IMG/VR virus record: IMGVR_UViG_3300034198_012754 | Location: 1-64,000 of that record | DNA: 64,000 nucleotides | From: a virus | Direction: 5' to 3' (one strand) | Part shown: positions 11,001 through 30,527 of the stretch, piece after piece | Numbering within the stretch: position 1 is the stretch's first letter | Layout: each line of letters starts with the position of its first letter | Position numbers and translations under genes: made by a program | The notes under the pieces: generated by a model | What the model was told of the DNA's origin: nothing | What the model saw: only the letters and a program-made list of their open reading frames with translations | Databases searched by the model: none

Positions 11001-11192
11001 ATGTCACAAAATCATGACGCAATCAAAACAGCATTCGAAACATACATTTCTGAGAACGAAAAGTTCACAGGCAAAGGTGTAAAAGCCGCAGCGGCCCGTG
11101 CTAGAAAAGCTCTACAAGAAATGTCAAAAGCAATCAAAGAGCGTCGCAAAGAAATCACAGCAGAAAAAGAAGCATTGACTGTCGCCAAGTAA
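11001..11192 (+). CDS. Histone H1-like (Hc1-type) small basic protein
   Basis: 63 residues. GKGVKAAAARARKALQEMSK followed by AIKERRKEITAEKE matches the Hc1-type repeat of bacterial H1-like proteins (KGNKAAxxRxRK then a KxxRKE helix), which bind and compact DNA. AAAAGGAAAC gives a strong ribosome site. Likely a nucleoid-binding protein of infected cell or virion; function inferred. Confidence 0.6.
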   Translation: MSQNHDAIKTAFETYISENEKFTGKGVKAAAARARKALQEMSKAIKERRKEITAEKEALTVAK

Positions 11193-11578: not shown

Positions 11579-11607
11579 TTGACCATTATAGGTGTTTAGT
11601 GTATAAT
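11579..11607 (+). promoter_or_regulatory. Sigma70-type promoter
   Basis: TTGACC at 11579-11584, 17-bp spacer, TATAAT at 11602-11607. It begins inside the stop of the previous gene and reads into a 460-base region without a convincing gene. Confidence 0.85.
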
Positions 11608-11635
11608 AGCAGTATATTGTCGTTAAACACCTATA
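11587..11635 (+). repeat. 12-bp perfect inverted repeat around the -10
   Basis: TATAGGTGTTTA at 11587-11598 and TAAACACCTATA at 11624-11635, separated by 25 bases that hold the -10 box and start site. The left arm is upstream of +1, so the full hairpin cannot form in the RNA from this promoter. That points to a DNA-level operator (looped or dimeric repressor) or a hairpin in read-through RNA. Confidence 0.75.
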
Positions 11636-12040
11636 TAATGGCAAAAAGTAGTAGAAAAAGAGCGATTTTTAGCTCAAGAGTGCAGTGGGTACTAAGTATT
11701 TGTGCATGTGGTAAAAACAATCTAGCTGATCTTTAGGATACAGCAGAAGATCACAATCTTAGAACCACAGCACCTCGGCTGTTTATACCGAGCAAAAAAG
11801 TAAACATAGGTACAGTGGTTGGGGTTTGTCCAAACTTTAATTGCTGTTTCGAAAGAGACCGTCGGAACGTCTCTTCGTTGACAACTAGTATTGATTGTGC
11901 TTGTAGCATTTAGGACAAAGAGCACAGTCCAAGAGAGTATGCCAAAGAAGGCCACCGAGTCTCGCTATCTATATCTCTCATTGTCAATGCGCTCATCCTG
12001 AGCACCTCCGCTGAAGAGCCCAGTATGGTTCAAAGGAGAA
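11614..12040 (+). ncRNA. Candidate structured leader or small RNA
   Basis: About 430 bases between promoter 11579-11607 and the SleB gene. Four local hairpins are visible: TGATCTT/AAGATCA (11727-11753), CTCGG/CCGAG (11774-11792), CGAAAGAGAC/GTCTCTTCG with one bulge (11850-11877) and GCTCA/TGAGC (11991-12003). No known RNA family fits, and I see no tRNA. A 32-codon frame at 11638-11736 has no ribosome site. It is either a free RNA or a regulatory leader of the hydrolase gene. Confidence 0.45.
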
Positions 12041-12044
12041 TGAC

Positions 12045-12626
12045 ATGACTTCAAAGTCAAGTAAACAACCAGCAGTAGATTTAAAAATATGGGCAGTTAA
12101 AACTTTTGGTTTTTTCTGTGTGATGTTTGCAGTGGTCATAGTAACCACTATCAAATTAGATGAATTGGCCAGCAAAAATGATGCATGGCGTCAAGGATTT
12201 GTTTCAGCAGAAGACCGTACACGGCAGTTGAAATGTATGACCCAGAACATTTACTGGGAAGCCGCTAGTGAGCCGTTTGAAGGCAAAGTAGCAGTGGCAC
12301 AGGTAACCATGAATCGCGTAGCAGACGGGCGTTTTGCCAATGATGTATGCGGTGTGGTTTATCAAAAGAATGTATTTTACGACCGAGTAGTTTGTCAATT
12401 TTCATGGTATTGTGAAGGTACTCACAGAGTCCGTCCTATACATCAGGCTTTATGGCGTGAGTCAGAGGAAGTGGCCAAAAAAGTCATGATGGAAGGATTT
12501 CGTTTACCCTCAATGAAGAAAGCTCTGTACTATCACGCAGACTACATAAATCCTCAATGGGGCAAGCCAAAGATCGACAAAATTGGCAGACATATATTTT
12601 ACAGTGAAAAAGGTGCACGCATATGA
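12045..12626 (+). CDS. SleB-type cell wall hydrolase with membrane anchor
   Basis: 193 residues. An N-terminal hydrophobic helix (about 16-36) acts as signal-anchor, then the Hydrolase_2/SleB domain begins with MTQNIYWEAASEPFEGKVAV, whose glutamate is the expected catalytic residue, followed by VTMNRVADGRFANDVCGVVY and CQFSWYC. These enzymes cut peptidoglycan glycan strands. The anchor suggests export to the periplasm (SAR-like). It is 16 kb from the main lysis cassette and coupled to a membrane gene that could be its holin. Confidence 0.85.
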   Translation: MTSKSSKQPAVDLKIWAVKTFGFFCVMFAVVIVTTIKLDELASKNDAWRQGFVSAEDRTRQLKCMTQNIYWEAASEPFEGKVAVAQVTMNRVADGRFANDVCGVVYQKNVFYDRVVCQFSWYCEGTHRVRPIHQALWRESEEVAKKVMMEGFRLPSMKKALYYHADYINPQWGKPKIDKIGRHIFYSEKGARI

Positions 12627-12952: not shown

Positions 12953-13279
12953 ATGACTTATGTAGTAACTGAATCCTGTATCATGTGCAAGCACACTGAC
13001 TGTGTGGATGTGTGTCCTGTGGATTGCTTCAAAGCAGGTCCAAATTTTTTAGTGATTGATCCCACAGAATGTATTGATTGTGCAGTGTGTGTGCCAGAGT
13101 GTCCTGTGGATGCAATTTACGCAGAGGATGCTGTGCCCGACGATCAACAACACTTTATTGAGCTCAATGCCGAACTCAGTGAGTTGTGGCCTGTGTTGAG
13201 CAAACGGGTGCCAGCGCCTGCAGATGCAGAACACTGGGCTACTGTTATCAGCAAACTACATCTGTTGGACAGAGGTTGA
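12953..13279 (+). CDS. fdxA: FdxA-type 7Fe ferredoxin
   Basis: 108 residues, full bacterial length. Cysteines 9, 12, 17, 21, 25, 40, 43, 46 and 50 follow the arrangement of Azotobacter ferredoxin I: C9, C17 and C50 for a [3Fe-4S] cluster and C21, C40, C43, C46 for a [4Fe-4S] cluster. The C-terminal extension [20 protein letters not shown] is that of proteobacterial FdxA. It could feed electrons to the radical SAM enzyme encoded at 23034-23945 or keep host metabolism running. Its close match to host proteins suggests acquisition from a proteobacterium. Confidence 0.93.
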
Positions 13280-13304
13280 CCAAAAACTCCTATTTTGCTA
13301 TAAT
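13276..13304 (+). promoter_or_regulatory. Sigma70-type promoter
   Basis: TTGACC at 13276-13281 followed by AAAAA, 17-bp spacer, TATAAT at 13299-13304 (TTTTGCTATAATATTAGTATAG context). Starts in the last codon of fdxA. Serves 13333-13755 and probably the IF-1/SOD pair. Confidence 0.9.
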
Positions 13305-13332
13305 ATTAGTATAGTAAATAGGAGTTATCTAT

Positions 13333-13755
13333 ATGTCTTTTCATCTTGAAGGTCCATGGTTAAGCACCACAGGCAAGAAGAAAGGTCCAAAGAAATGGGC
13401 CAGCTCTGAGGCCAAAGCACATGCAGAACGTTTGGCACGTGAGTGGCGTGATCGTGAAGCAGAGTGGAAAAAACTAGCACCCAAATTCAGCACAAGAAAC
13501 AACACTGCTCGGTCTAATAAACCTTTGGAGCCAAAGCACACCACTCCATTGGTCAGTTCTGGGCCCAAAATACCTCCTGGTAGAGAAACTCCCAAAATTA
13601 ACAGCGTAGACACAGGTTGGGTAACTTGTAGCAAACCCACTGACAAAGAGTACACAGGTACCAAAGTCAAAGGTATCGGTACCATGCACAAGTCAAATGC
13701 TGTGCCTATTTTCTCAGATGAAGAGGCAATTGAAATAAGTACAATGCGACGCTAA
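13333..13755 (+). CDS. Basic hypothetical protein
   Basis: 140 residues. The N-terminal 60 are Lys/Arg/Ala-rich helical, the rest Pro/Thr/Lys-rich and probably disordered. First gene after a strong promoter, with TAGGAG upstream. No family recognised; a nucleic-acid-binding role is possible by charge only. Confidence 0.55.
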
Positions 13756-13798: not shown

Positions 13799-14017
13799 AT
13801 GGCCAAAGAAGAAGGATTTCGGATGGATGGGCAAATAATTGACGTATTGCCCAATGCTATGTTTAGAGTCAAAATAGAAAATCTTGATCAACCCGTAACT
13901 GGAGTTATATCGGGTAAAATGCGTCAACACAATATCAAAATATTGTTGGGTGACACAGTAGAAATAGAATTCAGTCCATACGATCTAACTCGTGGACGAA
14001 TCACTCGCAGAAGATAA
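13799..14017 (+). CDS. infA: Translation initiation factor IF-1
   Basis: 72 residues, the exact length of bacterial IF-1. An S1/OB fold is evident, with [26 protein letters not shown] and the terminal [13 protein letters not shown], all signature IF-1 segments. IF-1 blocks the ribosomal A site and modulates start-site selection with IF-2 and IF-3. A phage copy could bias initiation towards phage messages, such as the near-leaderless late mRNAs proposed here. The start lacks a ribosome site and lies directly after an 8-codon leader. Confidence 0.92.
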
Positions 14018-14027
14018 GTACTAGATC

Positions 14028-14570
14028 ATGAGAGAAGAAATCAACCTAATTGAAGCCAGCACTCGTCCAGCCAAACTGGAAACAACACCATTGCCCTACG
14101 GAGAACAGGACCTAGAGCCAGTGCTCAGCAAAGAAAGCCTAGAGTATCATTATGGACATTTGGCCAAAGGCTATGCCAAACGCTACAATGCCGGTGAAGG
14201 CAATGCTGATTTCAACCGTGCTGGTAGTTTTTTGCACAACAAATTTTTCCCACAACTACGTGCTCCAAAAGGTGCAAACAAACCACGTGGAGCTGTACTG
14301 GAACTGATTGAATCTAACTTCAAGACCTATGAAGATTTCAAACAAGCAGTCAAAGAAACAGCCATGAAAATTCAAGGTTCTGGATGGGTATATTTGAGTA
14401 CATCAGGAACAATTAAAACCATACCCAATCATCAGGTTCGTACAGATATATGCGTGCTTATTGATTGGTGGGAACATGTATGGGCCACTGACTATCAGTG
14501 GGACAAAGAACGTTACTTAGACAATATCTGGAAGATTATTGACTGGGACGTTTGCAACCAACGCCTGTAA
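14028..14570 (+). CDS. sod: Fe/Mn superoxide dismutase
   Basis: 180 residues. The four metal ligands of the family can be placed: H41 (EYHYGH), H70 (AGSFLH), D146 and H150 (IDWWEH). TDYQWDKERYLDNIW matches the C-terminal helix. The enzyme turns superoxide into oxygen and peroxide. The sequence is diverged from bacterial SodB (LIDWWEH for LxVDVWEH), so it is a phage lineage rather than a recent copy. It is ten bases after IF-1, in the same transcript. Confidence 0.88.
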   Translation: MREEINLIEASTRPAKLETTPLPYGEQDLEPVLSKESLEYHYGHLAKGYAKRYNAGEGNADFNRAGSFLHNKFFPQLRAPKGANKPRGAVLELIESNFKTYEDFKQAVKETAMKIQGSGWVYLSTSGTIKTIPNHQVRTDICVLIDWWEHVWATDYQWDKERYLDNIWKIIDWDVCNQRL

Positions 14571-30476: not shown

Positions 30477-30505
30477 TTGACATGTACCTGAAAAGACAGT
30501 ATAAT
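30477..30505 (+). promoter_or_regulatory. Sigma70-type promoter nested in a terminator
   Basis: TTGACA at 30477-30482, 17-bp spacer, TATAAT at 30500-30505. The -10 lies in the left arm and loop of the hairpin at 30491-30523, and +1 falls at the start of the right arm. RNA made here thus lacks the left arm and escapes termination. Confidence 0.8.
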
Positions 30506-30527
30506 TAAAGTATACTGTCTTTTTTTA
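30491..30527 (+). terminator. Intrinsic terminator overlapping a promoter
   Basis: AAAAGACAGTATA (30491-30503) and TATACTGTCTTTT (30511-30523) form a 13-bp stem with a 7-base loop followed by further T residues. It ends the lysis transcript but not that starting at 30511. Confidence 0.8.

Follow-up and report, generated by a model that had tools for sequence, protein, structure and literature searches.

The SleB locus and its upstream interval

The window analysed here, a stretch of 64,000 nucleotides, is part of an 84,997-base IMG/VR virus record (IMGVR_UViG_3300034198_012754, positions 1 to 64,000), the source of which is a freshwater phage. On its plus strand, positions 12045-12626 encode a SleB-type cell-wall hydrolase, i.e., an endolysin (Pfam PF07486 Hydrolase_2, E = 1.5e-24; PHROG 938, endolysin). 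Upstream lies a putative sigma70-type promoter on the same strand, recognized by sequence match as TTGACC-17-TATAAT at 11579-11607, with TATAAT at 11602-11607 and a predicted transcript start at about 11612-11614; it is near-consensus and one among several such promoters in the same part of the window. No gene is found in the interval from the promoter to 12045, where SleB starts, the longest plus-strand open reading frame (ORF) there measuring 45 amino acids. Further, no terminator-like (intrinsic) site was found inside this leader interval. Hence, the leader RNA and SleB can share one transcript, and control of translation is likelier than attenuation at an intrinsic terminator.

The neighborhood additionally carries several phage copies of other genes: a histone H1-like Hc1 protein (11001-11192), a ferredoxin with DUF3470 (12953-13279), a translation factor IF-1 (13799-14017) and a Fe/Mn superoxide dismutase (14028-14570). 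In two related loci a radical-SAM gene is inserted directly before the leader RNA (L001, 1136-2557; L051, 1084-2496), and a link of the RNA to this upstream gene was rejected, the gene being absent from the window.

A family of structured RNAs tied to SleB

Comparison with SleB relatives, which were taken from viral contigs as the comparison set, indicates that positions 11612-12040 constitute a conserved structured RNA. The noncoding stretch is 87.6% identical to its counterpart in L001 over 452 nt, above the values for the neighboring genes (71-83%), and 70-74% identical over its 3' half to those of L051, L008, L006 and L005. A search with an invariant-hairpin pattern retrieved eight contigs, namely these five and the new L083, L087 and L088, in all of which the match lies directly before SleB. 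Searching additional SleB loci with R1, a covariance model of the core, then added nine more members (76-127 bits), and a second model (R3) twelve more, one of them partial; R3 also matches L102 and L103, divergent members spotted by eye that lay outside its training set. The R3 scores are slightly low owing to an offset of helix H3 by one column, and its matches were checked by position and by independent pair counts over 30 sequences. In total, the family comprises 31 full members, including the window, and one partial member, with homologues in 31 further IMG/VR contigs.

Across these 32 viral contigs the leader RNA always lies directly 5' of SleB. Its 3' end is the Shine-Dalgarno (SD) sequence, AGGAG at 12034-12038 (plus strand) in the window, and the spacing from the end of the SD to the SleB start codon is nearly fixed, at 2-5 nt and mostly 4, in all 31 full members. 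Each of the 20 whole viral records searched either carries one copy, always at SleB, or gives no significant match, with the qualification that R1 misses the divergent L017 in the whole-record search; no second significant copy was seen in these records, and none of the loci and records searched had the RNA away from SleB. Wider DNA patterns run against viral and bacterial genome contigs returned only chance matches beyond the family, and isolated phage genomes gave no DNA match. A near-consensus promoter precedes the RNA in about 20 of the 31 members, in eight of them at 144 nt from the core, while none was found upstream in about a third of the members, some of which may instead rely on read-through. 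In about half of the loci bearing the RNA the SleB start codon is TTG, not ATG, often as TTGA.

The sequence-only reading had recognized no known RNA family here, and the database searches agree: Rfam 15 gives no match in the window, the best relaxed match (E = 1.2) being to unrelated eukaryotic families, nor does Rfam match nine homologous loci at E up to 0.5. A description of the RNA was likewise not found in the literature searched, which is weak evidence given that subscription papers and preprints lay outside its scope. The leader RNA is a new family of structured RNA, absent from Rfam.

Fold of the leader RNA and its covariation

Taken singly, the interval folds only modestly better than its shuffles (z = -2.3). 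The consensus fold reaches z = -7.7 against column-shuffled alignments (alifold). When 30 distinct sequences were aligned by machine, 91.6% of the pair cells were paired in a structure of 37 pairs that takes in both pseudoknots, as compared with 75.0 +/- 0.8 in shuffles and at most 45.4% when the partners are slid, and both sides have changed in 24 of the 37 pairs. Each of four covariation alignments (A3-A6) likewise exceeds its shuffles and slid controls. As judged from these alignments, the covariation is decisive for the leader fold, and the compensatory changes whose absence had been named beforehand as a refutation of the sequence-only reading are present in the relatives. The four hairpins of that reading also exist, its stem of about nine pairs being H3 (below), but they are an incomplete part of a much richer fold that is visible only by comparison. 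In addition to several helices, this fold has two H-type pseudoknots, a probable kissing loop and, as an optional 5' module, a three-way junction, all on the plus strand.

Toward the 5' end, a motif conserved in relatives, ACTAAGTA, occupies 11691-11698; relatives with short leaders carry (G)TAAGTA just before the SleB start codon. It is followed at 11704-11772 by the three-way-junction module, formed by H0 (11708-11712/11764-11768), Ha (11725-11728/11741-11744) and Hb (11748-11751/11756-11759). Pair counts and the covariance model R2 support this module (92.3% paired, both sides changed in 9 of 15 pairs), and it stands alone before SleB in L007, L025 and L153. The first H-type pseudoknot, PK1 (11774-11805), pairs 11774-11778 with 11788-11792 and 11781-11786 with 11800-11805. 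In hand-picked strands from 17 sequences with very different strands, 72 of 72 and 99 of 101 of its pairs are standard; on account of that selection the machine alignment gives the fairer count, namely, for helix 1, 72.8% paired with both sides changed in 5 of 6 pairs.

Downstream, hairpin H2 (11813-11846) presents an apical GUCC (11828-11831) that probably kisses GGAC at 11913-11916 (PK2). By eye, the partner pairs have changed to UUCU/AGAA in L006 and CUGAA/UUCAG in L011, and the L104/L143/L160/L175 clade lacks both H2 and the kissing pair; the sequences thus lend this kissing loop moderate support. Hairpin H3, CGAAAGAGAC/GUCUCUUCG at 11850-11877, with a C-NUCG-G + AA loop, is 97.3% paired with two pairs changed on both sides. 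The long-range helix H4 (11878-11987) joins UUGACAA (11878-11884) to UUGUCAA (11981-11987) and is 87.0% paired with little variation. Within H4 lie H5 (11896-11901/11921-11926; 98.7% paired, both sides changed in 6 of 6 pairs), H7 (11933-11936/11974-11977), identified by eye, and the weak H6 (11941-11943/11950-11952; 76.5%). Support for the kissing loop, H6 and H7 is weaker than for the remaining helices.

Hairpin H8 (GCUC-AUCCU-GAGC, 11991-12003) is 100% paired with both sides changed in 4 of 4 pairs, and beside the SD lies the second H-type pseudoknot, PK3 (12006-12031), in which GCUG (12010-12013) pairs with CAGU (12021-12024) and GAGCC (12016-12020) with GGUUC (12027-12031). PK3 is 92.6% paired, with both sides changed in 8 of 9 pairs and a covariation of 0.626 against 0.212 +/- 0.039 in shuffles and at most 0.117 in the slid control, and in nearly every member its end lies 1-3 nt ahead of the SleB SD. 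Further, CUCC at 12006-12009 is predicted to pair with the SD. Such a helix, in which the SD would pair with a CUCC 26-32 nt upstream and enclose PK3, is predicted in the window, L001, L088 and L143, and is absent or reduced to 2-3 pairs in L006, L104, L121 and the L105 group. Masking of the SD is hence not universal and can be only part of the story; as a riboswitch-type platform the CUCC-SD helix, modelled in many members and not all, is a candidate.

Alternatives to a regulatory leader

About half of the members keep one forward frame open over 107-144 codons, and the conservation could on that account reflect a small gene or gene remnant, not an RNA. Against this, substitutions among close relatives are spread evenly over the codon positions (116:113:106 when summed), the partly open frames of relatives show neither the third-position excess nor the frame-preserving indels of a coding sequence, the frame shifts between near relatives (L143/L236 and L105/L106), stops interrupt it in the window, L001 and L088, and the base pairs covary massively. 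The small-gene explanation is thus largely refuted and we regard it as very improbable. A gene ending at the SleB start was rejected on the codon-position counts and frame shifts, and the open frame is a by-product of RNA conservation. Two smaller coding candidates were also rejected: a minus-strand ORF at 11722-11955, as its frame breaks in relatives, and a leader peptide at a conserved AUGG, which is ACG in L083 and L051 and meets a stop after 7 codons in L088 and 6 in L241.

A diverged tmRNA or tmRNA substitute presents a different case, as the leader RNA resembles the permuted (two-piece) tmRNAs (RF04321/RF01850) in its several pseudoknots, its length and its position. A permuted tmRNA sits directly before SleB in L067/L204 and L195, and about 1 kb before it in L191. 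Those preceding the SleB start codon occupy 2555-2943 in L067, 2112-2500 in L204 and 2165-2401 in L195, with the tags ANDSRFALAA and ANDAFYQEDYALAA. However, neither ARAGORN nor Rfam finds a tmRNA in the leader interval, even at relaxed E-values, while Rfam does find those of L067, L195, L191 and the window's own record; conversely, R1 gives no match at the tmRNA loci. Unlike permuted tmRNAs, the SleB leader lacks a tRNA-like domain, a tag frame and a match to either covariance model. Moreover, the window phage already carries a separate permuted tmRNA, outside the window at 83565-83791 of its record (G000; 108.7 bits to RF04321), as do the leader carriers G002 and G005, and of 34 related viral records, 18 have a tmRNA that scores above the cut-off. 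Descent from or replacement of a tmRNA was rejected on these grounds. The shared spot is probably a property of the locus, and a tmRNA origin, now largely refuted, retains next to no likelihood.

The tmRNAs at this position nevertheless bear on another explanation, in which a trans-acting or structural RNA is released from the SleB transcript by cleavage to act on another target (the ribosome, a host RNA or a protein), with SleB as a mere operon partner: the permuted tmRNA, itself trans-acting, fills the same spot in L067/L204 and L195, the size and number of pseudoknots of the leader RNA resemble those of free noncoding RNAs, and co-transcription could also explain the constant linkage. GOLLD and ROOL are larger, free noncoding RNAs. 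The leader RNA is akin to these ornate RNAs in that they too are large, elaborate noncoding RNAs of phages and environmental DNA (PMC12286853), but it is a leader linked to a gene and has no Rfam match. A separate RNA would, however, not need a 3' end that is the SleB SD with PK3 fixed 1-3 nt before it, nor has the RNA been found away from SleB in the loci and records searched. Hence, we consider a trans-acting role unlikely, though less so than the coding and tmRNA explanations.

The inverted repeat at the promoter

The perfect 12-bp inverted repeat that the sequence-only reading placed around the -10 box, TATAGGTGTTTA/TAAACACCTATA at 11587-11598 and 11624-11635, is indeed present, with a 12/12 match and arms 25 nt apart flanking TATAAT. 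As arms of at least 12 around a random position have P ~0.001, the repeat exceeds chance locally. Its left arm lies in the promoter spacer and is untranscribed from that promoter. The right arm belongs, on comparison with relatives, to a conserved leader element, TAAACACCTATATAATGGCAAAAAG (11624-11648, plus strand); elsewhere (L058, L010, L036 and others) it supplies the 3' side of a hairpin located where the transcript starts, followed by TAAYGGYAAAAA.

This repeat could be a DNA operator bound by a phage or host repressor, with the RNA downstream being incidental, as its perfection and its place at the promoter would suggest. However, the left arm is replaced in L001 and L088, the two closest relatives, within otherwise similar promoters, which makes a conserved operator unlikely; the repeats of 4-7 bp at the remaining SleB promoters tested are close to the background level, and the sequence has no second copy within the window. 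A site conserved or repeated at co-regulated promoters, as expected of an operator, is thus not seen, and the operator-like role proposed from the single sequence finds no support in the comparison. Among 11 strong promoters of the window, three have unusual repeats around the -10 box, of 12, 11 and 9 bp (random P for at least 9 = 0.009). That of 11 bp (13285-13326) spans the promoter at 13276-13304 ahead of a gene at 13333-13755 (PHROG 27048); its right arm holds the SD, and in the closest relatives L087, L160, L008, L051 and L175 the arms change in sequence while keeping their complementarity. Its different sequence and inclusion of the SD fit a role in RNA, not a shared repressor, and we hold an operator at SleB to be improbable.

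A read-through hairpin is the better guess for the repeat by analogy with phage T4, where the SD of gene e (lysozyme) is hidden in read-through RNA and free in promoter-born RNA (PMC3014915), with similar precedents in soc, 49 and I-TevI (PMC3014915). On this proposal the repeat would fold only in RNA from upstream genes, altering the 5' end of the leader, whereas the left arm is missing from RNA started at the 11579 promoter; the proposal concerns the repeat only and is compatible with a regulatory leader. The likeness to gene e lies in a promoter-spanning repeat, both arms of which occur only in read-through RNA, and in a phage lysis enzyme controlled through its leader RNA (PMC3014915), as we propose for SleB. 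The 13276 promoter shows this geometry too, with SD-bearing and compensating arms, which lends weight to the proposal, but that closer match to T4 belongs to another gene. At SleB the right arm is without an SD and lies about 400 nt from it, and the left arm is specific to the window and not conserved, so that a read-through role there is possible but doubtful. The third strong promoter with a repeat of at least 9 bp flanking the -10 box, at 30491-30523, is followed by a T run, and this repeat could be a hairpin or a terminator overlapping the promoter.

Probable role in endolysin expression

The constant position and orientation of the RNA 5' of a single gene, with a ribosome-binding site at its end in 31 of 31 full members, and the compensatory changes in its helices are the pattern of a cis-acting leader. 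We therefore consider it likely, on comparative grounds, that the endolysin mRNA carries this interval as its transcribed 5' leader, a new structured-RNA family that most likely sets SleB translation. Lying always directly ahead of SleB alone, the RNA probably helps set how or when the phage makes its lysis enzyme. The earlier idea of a small RNA or regulatory leader controlling the hydrolase is borne out as regards a structured, SleB-linked leader, by its homologues, covariation and fixed SD and start spacing, but the control itself remains a deduction. Transcription would start at the 11579 promoter, and the RNA would fold into the 5' three-way junction and then a core of PK1 and the probable kissing-loop domain closed by H4, followed by PK3 ending 1-3 nt before the SD. 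PK3 and the weak CUCC-SD helix may either compete with 30S binding or assist it, and the domains upstream of them could sense a factor (a protein, a metabolite or a ribosome state) that would shift this balance and so delay or boost endolysin synthesis.

For a lytic phage, when to lyse is a central decision, and the usual explanations invoke holins and transcription. If this reading is true, a new route of control would be at work here, through a large RNA that contains two well-supported pseudoknots and is linked to the endolysin gene. A more speculative version, which we consider possible but less than likely, is a lysis-timing switch, in which the leader senses a late-infection molecule or state and frees endolysin translation via PK3, acting as a riboswitch-like clock of large freshwater phages built from separable modules (short leader, three-way junction and core). 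The carrier phages are known from contigs of up to ~340 kb. As a precedent for autoregulation, the leader pseudoknot of the T4 gene 32 mRNA acts in control by gp32, and is a short element ~67 nt upstream of the start codon of an ssDNA-binding-protein gene (PMC3014915). In contrast, the SleB leader is a 430-nt fold with two covarying pseudoknots and a probable kissing loop, lies before an endolysin gene, and has its last pseudoknot touching the SD.

Additionally, the family supplies a strongly covarying RNA missing from Rfam and models for finding further members, and it illustrates how leaders of one gene gain or lose RNA modules between related phages. Short SleB leaders in L010, L012, L021, L029, L030, L036, L042 and L022 end in (G)TAAGTAAAA/TAAGTAACA just before ATG; being without a clear SD, they may provide SleB with an unusual ribosome-binding site.
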